NCBI GenBank assembly: GCA_012727895.1
Contig: JAAYGG010000083.1
Location: forward strand, 1 to 49,992
Source of the DNA: Bacillota bacterium
Lineage (GTDB): Bacteria > Bacillota > UBA4882 > UBA10575
DNA: 49,992 nt
Reading direction: 5' to 3'
Below, piece after piece: positions 9,725 through 24,310 of the stretch (the stretch's first letter is position 1; every line of letters begins with the position of its first letter). A program made the position numbers and the translations under genes. The notes beneath the pieces are model-generated. The model worked only from the letters and a program-made list of their open reading frames with translations. It had not been told where the DNA came from and did no database searches.

Positions 9725-12700
9725 GTGCAAAAAAATAACGTCAGCCGTGTTTATGTGGAGAGGAAGCAGGAGTTTGCCGGCGAGGCCGCCCGGCTGTGCC
9801 AGGAACTCCGGGATAATTTAGGGTTGGAAGGGTTGACGGGGGTCAGGATTCTTACCCGTTACGATATTGAAGGCCTGCCGGAAAGCGTTTACCGGGAGGC
9901 GGGCCGGGTTGTGCTGGCCGAACCGGCGGTGGACCTGGTTTATGAGGAAGAGGATTTTGCGCGCGAGATCGCCCGCTCCGAAATGGCGGGTAGCGAAGAA
10001 CGGGTGCTGGCCATCGAGTACCAACCGGGCCAGTATGACCAGCGGGGCGATTACACCGCCCAGTGCCTGCAGGTCTTAACCGGGGGCGAAAGGCCAACGG
10101 TGCGTGTGGCCAAAGTGTTGGTTTTGACCGGAAAAATCAACGGGGAAGAGATGGAGAAGATCAAAAAATATCTGATTAACCCGTTGGAGTCGCGGGAAGC
10201 CCCCCTGGAAAAACCGGCGACCCTGGCGGAAGAGTTTCCGGCAGCAGAGGAGGTTGCGGTTGTCACCGGCTTTATTGACGCCGGTCCGGAAGACCTGGAA
10301 AGAATCAGGGGCGAGATGGATCTGGCGATGTCCCGGGAGAGCCTGGAATTTTGCCAGCAGTACTTCCGGGATACCGCCCGCCGGGACCCGACCCTTACTG
10401 AACTGCGGATTTTGGATACTTACTGGTCCGACCACTGCCGGCACCTGACGTTTTTAACCGGGATCAAAGAGGTGGAATTTGAAGAAGGGGAATATACCGG
10501 GTTTTTCCGCCGGGTTTACCAGCGGTTTCTGGAAAACCGCCGGGCTTCCGGCAAGGGCGACGGGGATCTCACCTTAATGGAACTGGCAACGGCCGTGGGG
10601 AAAGAGATGAAGGAAAAAGGGCTTTTGGAGGATTTGGAGGTTTCCGAGGAGATCAATGCCAGCAGCATTAAGGTGGATGTGACGGTGGATGGCAAGACCG
10701 AGGAATGGCTGGTGATGTTTAAAAACGAGACCCATAACCACCCCACGGAGATCGAACCCGACGGCGGCGCCGCCACTTGCCTGGGCGGAGGGATCCGGGA
10801 TCCCCTCTCCGGCCGGGCCTATGTTTACCAGGCGATGCGGGTTACCGGGAGCGGCGATCCGCGGCAGCCGGTGGAGAAGACTATCCCGGGCAAACTGCCG
10901 CAGCGAAAGATTACGACCACCGCGGCGGCGGGTTATAGTTCTTACGGTAACCAGATCGGGGTGGCTTCCGGGCTGGTGGCGGAGGTCTATGATGAAGGGT
11001 TTGTCGCCAAACGGATGGAGATGGGAGCGGTGATCGGTGCGGCGCCCCGGGCCCATGTGGTCAGGGAACGGCCGGTGCCGGGGGACGTCGTGATTTTGCT
11101 GGGCGGCCGGACCGGCCGCGACGGGTGCGGGGGGGCCACCGGTTCCTCGCGGGCCCATACGGAGGAATCCCTTTATACCTGCGGGGCTGAGGTGCAAAAG
11201 GGCGATCCCCTCCTGGAACGGAGGATCCAGCGGCTCTTCCGCCGGCCGGAAGTGACCCGCTTGATTAAAAGATGTAATGACTTTGGGGCCGGCGGGGTCT
11301 CGGTGGCCGTCGGCGAGTTGGCGGACGGGCTGGAGATCAACTTGGACGCCGTGCCTGCGAAATATGCGGGCCTGGACGGGACGGAACTTGCCATCTCCGA
11401 GTCCCAGGAGCGGATGGCGGTGGTGGTGGCAAAAGACCAGGCGGAGGCCTTTATCCGGGCGGCCCGGGAGGAAAACCTGGAAGCCACGGTGATCGCGGAG
11501 GTGACCGCCGGCCGGAGGATGCGGATGTCCTGGCGGGGAAAGACCATTGTCGATTTGGACCGGGACTTCCTGGACAGCGGCGGGGTACGCCCCACAACCC
11601 GGGTTGTGGTTAAGGCCCCGCAGCCGGAGAGTTACTTCCGGCAACTCCCGCCGGAAGTGGACGGCGCCGGCGACCTGGCTACTGCGTGGCTTCGCAACCT
11701 GCAGCGTCTTAATGTCTGCAGCCGGCGGGGGCTGGTGGAGATCTTCGACAGCACCATCGGGGCGGGAACGGTCCTGGTGCCGCTGGGCGGGGCTTACCAG
11801 TTGACCCCGGCGGAGAGCATGGCGGCGAAGATCCCGGTTTTAGGAGGGGAAACCACCACCGCTACGTTGATGAGTTACGGGTATAACCCGGCCATTGGGA
11901 GATGGAGCCCGTTCCATGGCGCCCTTTACGCCATTGTCGAGGCGGTGGCGCGGATCGCGGCTGCCGGCGGCGACTACCGGCGGATCCGCCTTTCCCTGCA
12001 GGAGTATTTTGAACGGCTGGGAGAAGACCCGGCTAAGTGGGGGAAACCCTTTGCCGCCCTTTTGGGGGCGTATTATGTCCAGACCGAACTGGGGATCCCG
12101 GCGGTTGGGGGAAAGGACAGCATGTCCGGGAGTTTTGAAGATCTGCATGTCCCGCCGACCGTGGTGGCAGTGGCCGTCTGCCCGGCGGACGCCCGGCGGA
12201 TCCTCTCCCCGGAATTCAAGGCCGCCGGCAGCCGGGTTATCTACCTCCCGTTGGGCCGGAAAGAAGGGGAGTTGCCGGATCTCCGGCAACTGGCCGCCAA
12301 TTACGGGCGCCTTTACGAACTGGCCGGCGCCGGCAAGGTCACTGCCGCGCAGACGGTCCGGGAGGGCGGGCTGGCTGCGGCCCTCAGCAAAATGGCCTTC
12401 GGGAACATGATTGGCCTGGAGTTTACAGGGGAAACCGGCCTTGAACAACTCTTTACCCCCGCATACGGCTCTTTGGTCCTGGAGATCCCCGCCGGGGAAG
12501 ACCCGGCGGCCCTCTTGGCGGGACTGGAGTATAAAGAGTTGGGGGTGACCATCGCCGAACCGGTGATCCGGGTGAACGGGACGGAGATCCCCCTGGCGGC
12601 GGCAGTGGAGAAGTGGGAGGAGCCCCTGGCCGGGGTCTTCCCGCCCCTCGGACCCGGCAAGGCCGGTGCGCCGGTGTTGGCGCCGCCGGTTCCGGCCGGC

Positions 12701-13534
12701 GGCGGGGAACAGGCCAAGGCCACGGTCCGCCTGGCAAAACCGCGGGTCTTCATCCCGGTATTTCCCGGGACCAACGGCGAATATGATGCCGCCGCCGCTT
12801 TTGAGAGGGCCGGCGGCCTCGTCGAGACCCTGGTCATAAAGAACCTTTCCTCCCAAGAGATCGACGAGAGCCTCCGTCAGGTGGCAAAGATGATCGGGCA
12901 GGCACAGATCCTGGTTTTACCCGGCGGTTTCAGCCCAGGAAACGGGACGGCCGGTTCCGCCCGGTTCATGGCGGCGTTTCTCCGGAATACCCTTGTCAAA
13001 GAGGCGTTGAATGAATTCCTGGATAAAGGGGACGGCCTGATCCTGGGGATCGGCGCCGGTTTTCAGGCCCTGCTCAAGCTGGGGCTCCTTCCCTACGGTG
13101 AGTTCCGGGAGGCCGGCGAGGATTCGCCCGCGCTCACCCTTAACGTATCCGGGCGCCATGTCTCCCGTTTTGTCCAAGTGAAAGTCGTGGCCAATAATTC
13201 GCCCTGGCTGCGCCGGGCAAACCCGGGGGAGGTTTATTCCCTTCCCGTTTCCCACAACGAAGGACGGTTCATTGCCCGCCCGGCTGATCTGGACCGGTTC
13301 TTTGCCAACGCCCAAATTGCCACGGTCTATGTGGATCCGGAGGGAAATCCCGCCCTGCATCCACCGTATAACCCCAACGGTTCGGCCGGGGCGGTGGAAG
13401 GGCTGACCAGCCCCGACGGGCGGATTTTTGGCCGGATGGCCCATGCGGAACGGGTCGGGCCCTATGTGGCCAAGAATATCCCCGGGGAAAAGGACGGGCG
13501 GATCTTCCTCGCCGGCGTGGAGTATTTCCTATAA
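9725..13534 (+). CDS. purL: phosphoribosylformylglycinamidine synthase, single-chain clostridial type, glutaminase Cys absent
   Basis: PurL (FGAM synthase) makes FGAM from FGAR, ATP and glutamine in purine synthesis. The 1269-residue protein starts VSRVYVERKQEFAGEA, the usual clostridial N-terminus. The GTG at 9725 has a GGAAGTGGGGG ribosome binding site; an upstream ATG at 9629 would add an unrelated tail. The synthetase halves look intact (NETHNHPTEIEPDGGAAT and GGKDSMSGSFED segments). The C-terminal class-I amidotransferase keeps the His-x-Glu pair (MAHAER) but reads GIGAGFQ where GICNGFQ is expected (Gly1110 for the nucleophilic Cys). PGTNCEYD also reads PGTNGEYD (Gly1018). No other pur gene is nearby. 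The 266 nt before it also holds the divergent fapR promoter; several TATAAT-like sites occur at 9584-9607 without a good -35. Confidence 0.93.
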   Translation: MQKNNVSRVYVERKQEFAGEAARLCQELRDNLGLEGLTGVRILTRYDIEGLPESVYREAGRVVLAEPAVDLVYEEEDFAREIARSEMAGSEERVLAIEYQPGQYDQRGDYTAQCLQVLTGGERPTVRVAKVLVLTGKINGEEMEKIKKYLINPLESREAPLEKPATLAEEFPAAEEVAVVTGFIDAGPEDLERIRGEMDLAMSRESLEFCQQYFRDTARRDPTLTELRILDTYWSDHCRHLTFLTGIKEVEFEEGEYTGFFRRVYQRFLENRRASGKGDGDLTLMELATAVGKEMKEKGLLEDLEVSEEINASSIKVDVTVDGKTEEWLVMFKNETHNHPTEIEPDGGAATCLGGGIRDPLSGRAYVYQAMRVTGSGDPRQPVEKTIPGKLPQRKITTTAAAGYSSYGNQIGVASGLVAEVYDEGFVAKRMEMGAVIGAAPRAHVVRERPVPGDVVILLGGRTGRDGCGGATGSSRAHTEESLYTCGAEVQKGDPLLERRIQRLFRRPEVTRLIKRCNDFGAGGVSVAVGELADGLEINLDAVPAKYAGLDGTELAISESQERMAVVVAKDQAEAFIRAAREENLEATVIAEVTAGRRMRMSWRGKTIVDLDRDFLDSGGVRPTTRVVVKAPQPESYFRQLPPEVDGAGDLATAWLRNLQRLNVCSRRGLVEIFDSTIGAGTVLVPLGGAYQLTPAESMAAKIPVLGGETTTATLMSYGYNPAIGRWSPFHGALYAIVEAVARIAAAGGDYRRIRLSLQEYFERLGEDPAKWGKPFAALLGAYYVQTELGIPAVGGKDSMSGSFEDLHVPPTVVAVAVCPADARRILSPEFKAAGSRVIYLPLGRKEGELPDLRQLAANYGRLYELAGAGKVTAAQTVREGGLAAALSKMAFGNMIGLEFTGETGLEQLFTPAYGSLVLEIPAGEDPAALLAGLEYKELGVTIAEPVIRVNGTEIPLAAAVEKWEEPLAGVFPPLGPGKAGAPVLAPPVPAGGGEQAKATVRLAKPRVFIPVFPGTNGEYDAAAAFERAGGLVETLVIKNLSSQEIDESLRQVAKMIGQAQILVLPGGFSPGNGTAGSARFMAAFLRNTLVKEALNEFLDKGDGLILGIGAGFQALLKLGLLPYGEFREAGEDSPALTLNVSGRHVSRFVQVKVVANNSPWLRRANPGEVYSLPVSHNEGRFIARPADLDRFFANAQIATVYVDPEGNPALHPPYNPNGSAGAVEGLTSPDGRIFGRMAHAERVGPYVAKNIPGEKDGRIFLAGVEYFL

Positions 13535-17731: not shown

Positions 17732-17878
17732 CGGGGAGGGGTAAAAGAAATATTTCCGGGCAACGGTTAAACCGGTTAAAATGGGCGCGTACGTGTAAAA
17801 CCGCGGTTTTCCGGGCAGGATAAACCTGATAATACCCGGGTATTCTGGAAAAAAAGAGCAGAAGAGGCGGTGACGTAC

Positions 17879-20167
17879 GTGCCTGATCCCGGGAGAACAG
17901 GGCTAAGACCTTCAGGCCGGCAGGCGGGGATCTTCACCGCTTGCCTGGCCCTTTTTTTTGTTGCCCCCGTCTTTGCCGGGGTGGAGCCGGCCGCCGGGGA
18001 GCCTTCACGCCCGTGCGAAAAAGCGATCGTTCTTTTTTTGGGCGGTCTTTCCCTTGCCGACTGGCAGGCGGCGGAGACACCGCACTTTAGAGCCCTGGCG
18101 GAGCGGGGGGCGGTGGGGCTGATGAATGTCCGGACTGCCGGGTCTTTCAGCCCGGAGAACGCCTATGCCACCTTCAATGCAGGAGAACGGGCCCTGGGAT
18201 CCCCGGAGGCCGGGACGGTCCTGCAAACCGGGGAGACGTACGAAACTGGTACCGCCGGCGAGGTCTTTCTCCGGCGGACGGGGATTGCGCCCCCGTCCGG
18301 GGCTTTGCTGGTCATGGACTGGCCGCGTCTTCTCAAGAATAATGCCGCCCTCCCCATGGTTTTGGGCCTTGGCACCTTCGGCGAAACCATGGCGCAGGGC
18401 GGGGTAAGAGTGGCTGTCCTCGGCAATGCCAAGACACCGGCGGGCCCGGGGCGGGAGATAGCGCTGGCAGCGATGAACAGCGCCGGGATTATTCCCCGCG
18501 GGGAGGTGGGTCCCGGGCTCTCCCGCGCCAACCCCCTGCGGCCATGGGGGATGGAAACCGATTACCGGCGGCTCCATACGGCACTGCTGCGGTTATTGGC
18601 GGAGGCCGACTGCATTCTTGTGGAATTGGGGGATTCTTCCCGGGTAGAAAAGTACCGGGAATACCTCTTGCCCGGCTTGCGGCAAGCATACCGGCTCCAG
18701 GCCTTGGCAGCGGCGGACAGTTTTTTAGGGGCGCTTCTGGCCACGATTGATCTGGAGCGGACGGTGCTTTTTATCGTTACTCCCTATCCCTCCCGGGATG
18801 CGGTGGACCAGGGCGATACACTGACCCCGGTCCTGGCCGCCGGGCCGGGTTTTCAGCGGGGACTGCTTTATTCGCCCAGTACCCGGCAGCCCGGGATTAT
18901 TGCCTTTCCCGACCTGGCGGCGACTCTCTTTGCCGCCTTTGAGATCAAGCCCCCCTCCGGTTTCCCGGGCCGCCCCCTCTCCTGGGCGCCTGCGGATTTC
19001 CCCCTTCAAACCCTGGCGGAGAAGAATCACCGGGTGGTCCAGGTTAATAATGCCAGGGGACCGGTGCTGAAAGGTTTTGTCTTCATCCAGATCGCCCTTT
19101 TCCTCCTGGTTCTCCTCTTTATCCTGCACCCGCGCTTCCGCAGCCCCCGCTTTTTCTCTCTCTTGCAAGTTCTCCTCGCCGGAATTACCAGCATACCGCT
19201 GGGGCTTTTGGTTTTGCCATGGTTCGGGACCCCGGGCGTACCCGGGATTACCCTTTACCTCTTGGCTGTGGCCCTGGGCGCCGGTTGGGCCGGGACTGGG
19301 AGAATTTTTCGCAGGCAGGGGAGGCGCGCAGCTGTCCCCGCCTTCCTCGGCCTGGTGACCTCCCTAGCCATCCTCGGGGATATCTTCCGGGGTTCGCCGT
19401 TAATGAGCGGTTCCTTGCTGGGGTTCAGTCCTGTAGGCGGGGCGCGGTATTATGGGATCGGCAATGAATACCTGGGGGTTCTCCTCGGGGGATCAGTCAC
19501 AGGTATTACTTTTCTCTGGGACCAAGCCGGGGGCAGATCCGCGGTTGCCCGCCGTCCCTGGATAATGCCGGTTATCACCGGTCTCCTTTTTATTCTCTGG
19601 CTTTATGCGGTGGCCGCGCCGTGGCACGGCGCCAACCTGGGGGGAGCAATCGCCCTGGCCGTCGCCTATCTGGTCACCGGTTTTTCCTTTTCCGGGCGGC
19701 CTTTCTCCGCCAGGCAGAGGCTTCTCTTGGTTTTGGGCGGGGTGGCCGCGTTGCTTTTCCTTTTGGGCGTGACCGATCTCCTCCGGGCTCCTGGAGTCCA
19801 ATCCCACATGGGGCGGCTGGTCGTTTTGCTCCGGGCGGAGGGACCGGCCGCCGCTGTCCCGGTGATCTGGCGGAAGTTAAAGATGAACCTTACGCTGATT
19901 GAGTATACGGTTTGGAGCAGGATTTTCCTTACCTTCCTTATTGTCCTGGCAGTCCTTTTCTTGCGGCCCGGGAGAAAAACCGCCGGTCTTGACCGCCGGT
20001 TTCCGGCGTTGGCCAAAGGAGTCCGGGGCGCCCTGGCGGGAAGCATTACCGCGCTGGCGGTGAATGATTCGGGGATTGTTGCCGCCGCCACCGGCCTGCT
20101 TTTTCCCGTGGTCATACTGACAATGATTATTTTGGAAGACTATGCCTGTGGTCAAGATCATGCCTAA
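17879..20167 (+). CDS. polytopic membrane protein with an alkaline-phosphatase-fold-like N-terminal domain
   Basis: The roughly 762-residue protein has a signal or anchor segment (about 20-40), an extracytoplasmic domain (about 45-395), and around ten membrane segments in the C-terminal half. The outer domain has the outline of an alkaline phosphatase superfamily domain: GAVGLMNVRT, SPENAYATFNAGERA, a PVLAAGPGF segment and PDLAATLF. The usual first metal Asp is replaced (LFLGGL rather than a DG motif) and the late Asp-His pair (DHG) is not visible, so it may be catalytically dead. The membrane half has RYYGIGNEYLG and NDSGIVAAAT motifs. The GTG at 17879 lies 11 nt after GAAGAGG; a GTG at 17870 is too close. 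I do not know its function; its position between efp and spoIIIA suggests an envelope or sporulation role (inference). Confidence 0.7.
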   Translation: MPDPGRTGLRPSGRQAGIFTACLALFFVAPVFAGVEPAAGEPSRPCEKAIVLFLGGLSLADWQAAETPHFRALAERGAVGLMNVRTAGSFSPENAYATFNAGERALGSPEAGTVLQTGETYETGTAGEVFLRRTGIAPPSGALLVMDWPRLLKNNAALPMVLGLGTFGETMAQGGVRVAVLGNAKTPAGPGREIALAAMNSAGIIPRGEVGPGLSRANPLRPWGMETDYRRLHTALLRLLAEADCILVELGDSSRVEKYREYLLPGLRQAYRLQALAAADSFLGALLATIDLERTVLFIVTPYPSRDAVDQGDTLTPVLAAGPGFQRGLLYSPSTRQPGIIAFPDLAATLFAAFEIKPPSGFPGRPLSWAPADFPLQTLAEKNHRVVQVNNARGPVLKGFVFIQIALFLLVLLFILHPRFRSPRFFSLLQVLLAGITSIPLGLLVLPWFGTPGVPGITLYLLAVALGAGWAGTGRIFRRQGRRAAVPAFLGLVTSLAILGDIFRGSPLMSGSLLGFSPVGGARYYGIGNEYLGVLLGGSVTGITFLWDQAGGRSAVARRPWIMPVITGLLFILWLYAVAAPWHGANLGGAIALAVAYLVTGFSFSGRPFSARQRLLLVLGGVAALLFLLGVTDLLRAPGVQSHMGRLVVLLRAEGPAAAVPVIWRKLKMNLTLIEYTVWSRIFLTFLIVLAVLFLRPGRKTAGLDRRFPALAKGVRGALAGSITALAVNDSGIVAAATGLLFPVVILTMIILEDYACGQDHA

Positions 20168-22631: not shown

Positions 22632-23015
22632 GTGGATTTCGGTGTTTTTTTTGGTATTGTCCTTTTGGCTGTAGCCTTCCTTTCTTTGTTACGGCAGACC
22701 CGCCCGGAACTGGCCGTCCTCCTTTCCGTGGCGGCGGGGGTAATTATCTTCCTGCGGCTCATCGGGCCTTTGCAGGAATTGGTCAGGACCTTTGAGTTCC
22801 TGGCGGCGCAGGCCCAGATCAACCTGGTTTACCTGCAGATCGTTTTCCGGGTCATGGGTGTGGCTTACCTGACCGGGTTTACCGCCCAAATCTGCAGGGA
22901 TGCCGGGGAAGGGGCCTTGGCGCTTAAATTGGAGATGGCGGGGAAAGTCATCATCCTTCTCCTGGCTGTCCCGGTACTCGTGGCCATCCTCGAAACGGTC
23001 CTGCGGATGCTCTGA
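22632..23015 (+). CDS. spoIIIAD: stage III sporulation protein AD
   Basis: The 127-residue membrane protein has about four hydrophobic segments and the family stretch VFRVMGVAYLTGFTAQICRD followed by GEGALALKLEMAGK. It is similar in design to SpoIIIAC and to export-apparatus subunits. GTG start with AAGGGGAG upstream; 21 nt after spoIIIAC. Confidence 0.95.
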   Translation: MDFGVFFGIVLLAVAFLSLLRQTRPELAVLLSVAAGVIIFLRLIGPLQELVRTFEFLAAQAQINLVYLQIVFRVMGVAYLTGFTAQICRDAGEGALALKLEMAGKVIILLLAVPVLVAILETVLRML

Positions 23016-23026
23016 AGGGGATAAAG

Positions 23027-24310
23027 ATGAAAGAACAGAAATGTCCGGTTTTGACAGGGGCTCTGTTGATAGTGATCTTCAGCGCCGGGGTGGCGGGGAC
23101 GGCTGGGGTGACGGGGGCAGCCTGGGCTGTACCGGAGGCAGCCGGGACGATAGGCGCCGCCTGGACGGTAGTGGAAGCGACAGGAGCGGCCGGGATGGCC
23201 GGGGCGGGCTGGGAGACAGGGACAGCCGGGATCGACGCCGTGGTGGAAGAGGAATTGAACCATCTGGATCTGGCGGGTCCCTATTCATTGCTCAGGGGGA
23301 TGGACCGGGAGATCCGGGAACTCCTTCCGGAATGGGACCCGGCGGCCTGGGCCAGAGAAGGGCTGCAGTTGGACCTTTCCGGTATGGCCGGGCGGTTGCT
23401 CCGGCTCCTCTGGGGGGAAGTGGTGGCCAGCTTCAACCTCCTGGGGAAGCTGCTTGTCCTGGCGGTGATTGCCGCGGTTTTATCCCGGTTCCAACAGGCC
23501 TGGAACCGGGAGAGCGTGGGCCGGCTGGCGGAGAACGTCATCTATCTGGTCCTGATGGGACTGGTCATCCAGAGCTTCCATTTCATCCTTAACCTGGCCC
23601 GCGGCAGCCTTGACCGGGCAACGGAGTTTGTTTATGCTTTGCTCCCGGGGTTCTTTACCCTGCTGACCGCGGCGGGCGGGTTGACCCTGACGAGTATCTG
23701 CCATCCGGTGGTTTGGACCGGGATCGGCCTGGTGGTCGGGGCAATTAAAGACCTGATCTTCCCTATGATTTATTTTGCCGGCATTACCGGGCTTGTCTCG
23801 CTGCTGGCGGAGGGCTTTACCTTGAGCAAACTGGCGGGACTCGCCCGGAAGCTGGCCATCGGGCTTCTGGGGCTCCTGGTCGCCCTTTTCCTGGGGGTCG
23901 TTACCGTCCAGGGGATTTCCGTGGCGGTGGCCGAGGGAGTGGGCTTACGGGCGGCCAAATTTGTCACCGGCACCTTTGTCCCCCTGGTCGGGAGCGCACT
24001 GGCGGACAGTATGGAATTGGCGGCCGGATGTTCGCTGTTGATCAAAAACGGGCTCGGTCTTTTTGGCGCAGTTGCCGCCGTCCTGATCTGCCTGCACCCG
24101 GCCTTAAAAGTTTTGGCGGTGGCCCTTATTTACTACCTGGCTTCCGCTTTGGTCCAGCCCGCGGGGGAGGAACGGCTGGCCGCGGCTTTGCATGAAGTAG
24201 GAAGTATTTTTCTCATGGTCTTTGCCGCCCTGGCCATCACCGGGCTCATGTTCTTCTTCTCCCTCGCCATCTTGACCGGGCTGGGGAATATGACGGCAAT
24301 GATCCGTTAA
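23027..24310 (+). CDS. spoIIIAE: stage III sporulation protein AE, with Gly/Ala-rich repeat insert
   Basis: The 427-residue polytopic protein of the SpoIIIA channel has a signal segment, an outer domain (with LRGMDREIRELLPEWDPAAW) and about eight membrane helices with the family segments FFTLLTAAGG and GLRAAKFVTGTFVPLVGSALAD. After the signal peptide, residues about 22-70 form an unusual Gly/Ala/Trp-rich run with three related ~13-residue units (GAAWAVPEAAG, GAAWTVVEATG, GAGWETGTAG), likely grown by DNA repeat expansion. The ATG has AGGGGATAAAG upstream. A 20-bp tandem repeat begins in its stop codon. Confidence 0.95.
   Translation: MKEQKCPVLTGALLIVIFSAGVAGTAGVTGAAWAVPEAAGTIGAAWTVVEATGAAGMAGAGWETGTAGIDAVVEEELNHLDLAGPYSLLRGMDREIRELLPEWDPAAWAREGLQLDLSGMAGRLLRLLWGEVVASFNLLGKLLVLAVIAAVLSRFQQAWNRESVGRLAENVIYLVLMGLVIQSFHFILNLARGSLDRATEFVYALLPGFFTLLTAAGGLTLTSICHPVVWTGIGLVVGAIKDLIFPMIYFAGITGLVSLLAEGFTLSKLAGLARKLAIGLLGLLVALFLGVVTVQGISVAVAEGVGLRAAKFVTGTFVPLVGSALADSMELAAGCSLLIKNGLGLFGAVAAVLICLHPALKVLAVALIYYLASALVQPAGEERLAAALHEVGSIFLMVFAALAITGLMFFFSLAILTGLGNMTAMIR

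Follow-up and report, generated by a model that had tools for sequence, protein, structure and literature searches.

The window, the whole stretch of 49,992 nucleotides that was analysed, carries a purL gene coding for a single-chain FGAM synthase of the TIGR01857 type (Table 1). The protein, from its residue 40, matches TIGR01857 at 1650.6 bits against a cut-off of 1057, over positions 2 to 1239 of 1239. It resembles clostridial single-chain PurL (TIGR01857) and Salmonella PurL in its full-length architecture, in its synthetase residues, and in the fold of its glutaminase domain; unlike these, it has neither the catalytic cysteine nor any other cysteine in that domain, and the same is true of each of the three genomes of the genus. 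Elsewhere in the window, a SpoIIIAE gene (22928-24304) indicates that the organism is probably a spore-former, and a 794-residue open frame at 17780-20161 has no Pfam match.

Table 1. Features of the purL gene (window positions) and of the glmM-nagB locus
Feature	Position	Strand	Remarks
purL, single-chain FGAM synthase, TIGR01857 type	9725..13534	+	longest ORF from 9629; likely start is residue 33, about 9725
FGAM synthetase part	10697..12634	+	residues about 357-1002; homologous to solved PurL chains
GATase_5 (glutaminase) domain	12737..13531	+	residues 1037-1301; Cys-free, predicted fold intact
PGTNGE loop	12764..12781	+	near-invariant Cys replaced by Gly
Nucleophile elbow GIGAGFQ (vs GICNGFQ)	13046..13066	+	Gly codon 13052-13054, Ala codon 13055-13057
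Ser-His-Asn-Glu-Gly	13250..13264	+	triad His and Glu kept
glmM-nagB locus	L346 1323-3766		own genome, contig 108

The elbow codons, GGG ATC GGC GCC GGT TTT CAG, read GIGAGFQ in place of GICNGFQ, confirming the claim of the preliminary description that the glutaminase domain lacks its catalytic cysteine and that three base differences separate these codons from TGC AAC. The residue numbers given there, Gly1110 and Ala1111, fit a start at residue 33 and correspond to 1142 and 1143 of the longest ORF. As had also been described, the second cysteine, that of PGTNCE, is glycine too (codon GGC), and the His-x-Glu pair is kept, although it lies just beyond the interval (12770-13150) to which the feature had been assigned. 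The catalytic triad of a glutamine-dependent FGAM amidotransferase (EC 6.3.5.3) is thus incomplete, with glycine for cysteine next to a retained histidine and glutamate.

A single read error had been judged unlikely at the outset. Read error can now be excluded, because both other genomes of the genus, which are independent of this one, have GIGTGFQ together with PGTNGE in PurL. The genome is a draft of 164 contigs, which would favor a mistake of sequencing or assembly in a single metagenome contig, but the same loss in two congeners and in other lineages already refutes that explanation, and we regard its likelihood as practically nil. The preliminary description had also proposed relatives that have the cysteine as evidence against the loss, and here the picture is divided. 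Besides the congeners, three genera of the same family are without it, with the elbow reading GIGDGFQ in G006 and G014 and GIDNGFQ in G007; in these dead PurLs the triad histidine is gone as well (SNAEG, SNGEG, and SSSEG). On the other side, G005 of the same family keeps GICNGFQ and SHGEG, and the cysteine is present in nearly all other relatives read. Losses elsewhere are seen in G035 (GIASGFK), L045 (GIGNGFQ), and L055 (GISNGFQ). A pattern scan for Cys-less PurL of the window's type matched 22 of 398 genomes of the phylum, of which only the three of the genus are matches in PurL and the remainder are due to chance; serine encoded by TCN and split PurQ fall outside the pattern, and the known case of G035 was missed. 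The scan therefore suggests that the Cys-less form is rare in the phylum.

Several lines of evidence describe the state of the domain that has lost its nucleophile. Pairwise dN/dS within the genus is 0.15 to 0.16 for the synthetase part and 0.20 to 0.24 for the glutaminase domain. The dead domain is under relaxed yet purifying selection, which argues that PurL is a working protein. Identity in PurLs with the cysteine is higher in the glutaminase domain than in the synthetase (difference of +7.1 points, sd 1.8). The relation is reversed in the dead PurLs of the window's family and in G035 (-1.4 to -3.2), and intermediate values are found for L045 and L055 (+4.8 and +4.4), whose losses are perhaps recent. 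The window's PurL differs at 13 of the 86 glutaminase-domain positions that show 97% or greater invariance among relatives with the cysteine, the catalytic cysteine being one of them, versus 12 of 234 such positions in the whole synthetase part, where the other 222 are kept; the change in the glutaminase domain exceeds chance. An AlphaFold model of the domain nevertheless has a confident fold (pLDDT 88.6, pTM 0.90), and its best PDB matches are Salmonella PurL chains, followed by human PurL and Thermotoga PurQ. The nucleophile has thus been lost while the fold and the gene are kept under selection, as expected of an amidotransferase with a dead domain like that of CPS1.

Could the domain still hydrolyze glutamine by means of another nucleophile? 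The retention of the triad histidine and glutamate in the genus is compatible with this, but an alternative cysteine does not exist in a Cys-free domain, further invariant positions have been lost, and in the dead PurLs of the same family the histidine has gone too, so that we consider such activity very unlikely. Nor does a separate subunit appear to rescue PurL. The preliminary description had offered dependence on a separate PurQ as an alternative to dependence on free ammonia; searches of the organism's own genome found no second PurL, no GATase_5 domain other than that of PurL, and no PurS, leaving a split PurL/PurQ/PurS system unsupported.

PurL is not the only glutamine amidotransferase of the genus to have been affected. 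The elbow of GuaA reads GIGAGM in the organism's own genome and GIGYGM in the congeners, versus GICYGMQ, and GuaA is full-length at a high score. The guaA gene of one congener (L129, G001) contains an in-frame TAG close to its 3' end, which may be an assembly error. CarB is likewise full-length with a high score, yet CarA was not found in searches of the genus; the gene beside the start of CarB is divergent and is not carA. An AsnB-like protein (L125 466-1887) begins Met-Ala-Gly-Ile instead of Met-Cys, so that Cys1 is replaced by alanine, and matches only a remnant of a shortened glutaminase domain. Neither AsnA nor GlmS was found by search in the genus. All three genomes have nagB immediately after glmM, at the position taken by glmS in G005 and G016; nagB and glmM were seen side by side only in the window's genus. 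PurF, in contrast, is complete, keeps its cysteine, and is followed by a purM-like frame; PyrG keeps GICLGMQ or GVCLGMQ; and glutamine synthetase is present. Glutamine is therefore still made and apparently used, and the losses are selective rather than a general decay.

Comparable states recur among the relatives. The nucleophile of PurQ is replaced by alanine in G003, G008, G010, and G015, by glycine in G009 and G059, and by serine in G040; PurQ was not found in G037, G038, and G044 with a PurL query, which can miss divergent PurQ. GuaA has glycine for cysteine in G008, G010, and G015, an eroded glutaminase domain in G006, G007, G014, G035, G044, and G059, and none at all in G037 and G038. 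Where CarA is present in the window's family, it always has glycine for cysteine, even in G004 and G005, in which PurQ/PurL, GuaA, and GlmS are intact despite the dead CarA. The same substitution in CarA is found in G059 and in the genome of L045, and the CarA of G040 is intact. PurF keeps its cysteine in all genomes read. PyrG does so in nearly all, the exceptions belonging to one sister genus (G009 and one of two copies in G004, with glycine; L314, L317, and L342). GlmS-like frames of about 370 residues, consisting of the isomerase part without a glutaminase, were observed in G043 (contig 1, 2416384-2417472) and G034 (contig 8, 90625-91716). From these states we infer an order of loss, read from sequence, in which CarA went first, GlmS followed together with PurQ/PurL, and GuaA came later; the cysteine of PurF is retained throughout and that of PyrG with few exceptions.

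Loss of the PurQ/PurL nucleophile co-occurs with the GlmS and GuaA losses in several separate lineages. Forty-five genomes were scored, 15 with dead and 30 with intact PurQ/PurL; absences were determined by search, and many of the genomes are incomplete drafts, so that any single gene absence is weak evidence. GlmS is absent from 15/15 genomes with dead PurQ/PurL versus 2/30 with intact PurQ/PurL (Fisher, 4e-10), and the GuaA glutaminase is dead in 12/15 versus 0/30 (Fisher, 1.6e-8), although both tests ignore kinship, which inflates P. On the best tree of the GuaA synthetase domain, the PurQ/PurL state changes nine times, and at least five of these changes are forced by supported branches. 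A pairwise test over well-supported branches yielded five pairs for PurQ/PurL, of which three to five agree and none is opposed; with only five independent pairs, the test cannot reach 0.05. In the sister contrasts G004/G009 and G012/G003, the member with dead PurQ is also the one without GlmS. Two genomes chosen solely for a Cys-less PurL served as an out-of-sample test, with a Cys-bearing control (L034). In the genome of L055, GuaA is 438 residues long and has no working glutaminase domain, and neither GlmS nor CarA was found; in that of L045, CarA is dead, GlmS is missing, and GuaA was not found. The control has GuaA, GlmS, and CarA.

Two other explanations of the joint losses can be weighed. 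If purines, arginine or pyrimidines, and amino sugars were taken up from outside, the biosynthetic enzymes might be decaying under relaxed selection, with the glutaminase parts going first. The loss of GlmS in Akkermansia, which depends on GlcNAc (PMC5902328), sets a precedent for such salvage or auxotrophy, and the several genomes in which the glutaminase domain of GuaA is eroded or missing would fit it. However, decay is limited to the glutaminase parts: the PurL synthetase is under strong purifying selection (dN/dS about 0.16), GuaA and CarB are full-length at high scores, and PurF is complete with its cysteine and followed by the purM-like frame, all of which makes this explanation unlikely. 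Alternatively, a separate, unrelated glutaminase might act in trans, hydrolyzing glutamine and passing the ammonia on to PurL and to the other enzymes, an idea in keeping with the glutamine synthetase and the cysteines of PurF and PyrG, by which glutamine is still in use. We think this quite improbable, since no PurQ was found in the genome, the docking place is still occupied by the fused dead domain, and the losses extend to several unrelated enzymes and, for GlmS, to the whole gene.

The reading best supported, given the Cys-free domain and the parallel losses of GuaA, AsnB, CarA, and GlmS in the genus, is that PurL is an ammonia-dependent FGAM synthetase and that its change is one step in a lineage-wide switch from glutamine to free ammonia; judging from sequence comparisons, we hold this to be probable. 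The part of the preliminary description that foresaw a PurL unable to hydrolyze glutamine and dependent on ammonia is thus supported, while its separate-PurQ alternative is not. The synthetase part would still make FGAM from FGAR and ATP, and the fused glutaminase domain, unable to hydrolyze glutamine, would be retained as a structural part. Mammalian CPS1 offers a model, for it keeps a fused class I glutaminase domain without the catalytic cysteine as a structural element and takes free ammonia as its donor. Free NH3 may similarly reach the synthetase site of PurL through or beside the dead domain. The likeness has a limit, as CPS1 is a single ammonia-detoxifying enzyme of animals, whereas the bacterial genus described here has lost the function from a number of biosynthetic enzymes together. 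The switch would have been stepwise and recurrent, the glutaminase function having also gone from GuaA, carbamoyl-phosphate synthetase (CarB without CarA), the AsnB-like protein, and GlcN6P synthesis, where NagB, encoded in the place of glmS behind glmM, would run in the aminating direction. The use of free ammonia as donor inside the cell and the aminating direction of NagB are inferences, as is an ammonia-rich habitat.

Precedents exist for parts of this scheme. A change of cysteine to alanine in Plasmodium GMP synthetase abolished activity with glutamine and left that with ammonium (PMC9312489). Single-domain NadE has free ammonia as its in vivo donor, as we propose here, but that form is judged ancestral (PMC3376133), whereas in the present lineages a glutaminase function was once present and then lost. 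The same study tabulated several hundred genomes and never met GuaA, PyrG, AsnB, PurL, or CarAB without a glutaminase component, a count of domains and genes, not of catalytic residues. Ammonia dependence has been proposed, as a guess, for archaeal PurF-like proteins without the cysteine (PMC3261824); here, by contrast, PurF always keeps it. The role of NagB calls for caution. Akkermansia muciniphila resembles the window's genus in having NagB and no GlmS, and it needs GlcNAc because its NagB, with Km values of 41 mM for NH4 and 5.5 mM for F6P, aminates poorly (PMC5902328); by analogy, the NagB of the genus may not make GlcN6P. Nevertheless, the genus differs from Akkermansia in having nagB in the glmM locus and in the loss of other glutaminases, and the glmM-nagB neighborhood argues for, without proving, an anabolic NagB. 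No earlier description of PurL, GuaA, CarA, and GlmS losing the function together was found in the literature searched, the coverage of which leaves out most subscription journals.

In textbook biosynthesis, glutamine supplies most amide nitrogens, since cells contain little free ammonia. Our findings suggest that free ammonia instead provides the nitrogen for nucleotides, and perhaps for cell-wall sugars, in the genus and in several unrelated anaerobic relatives. More broadly, it seems somewhat likely that several separate anaerobic Firmicutes lineages have taken apart their glutamine-dependent nitrogen supply along a recurring path, with CarA first, GlmS and PurQ/PurL next, GuaA after them, and PurF and PyrG at the end if at all. 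Purines, carbamoyl phosphate, GMP, and, via an aminating NagB, the amino sugars of the cell wall would now receive nitrogen straight from free ammonia. If this is true, these lineages would serve as natural experiments on the purpose of glutaminase domains and ammonia tunnels, and they would show both which enzymes cannot do without a glutaminase (PurF and PyrG) and how a lasting supply of ammonia reshapes metabolism. The signature of Cys-less PurL/PurQ, GuaA, and CarA together with the absence of GlmS might then predict ammonia dependence from genomes alone.
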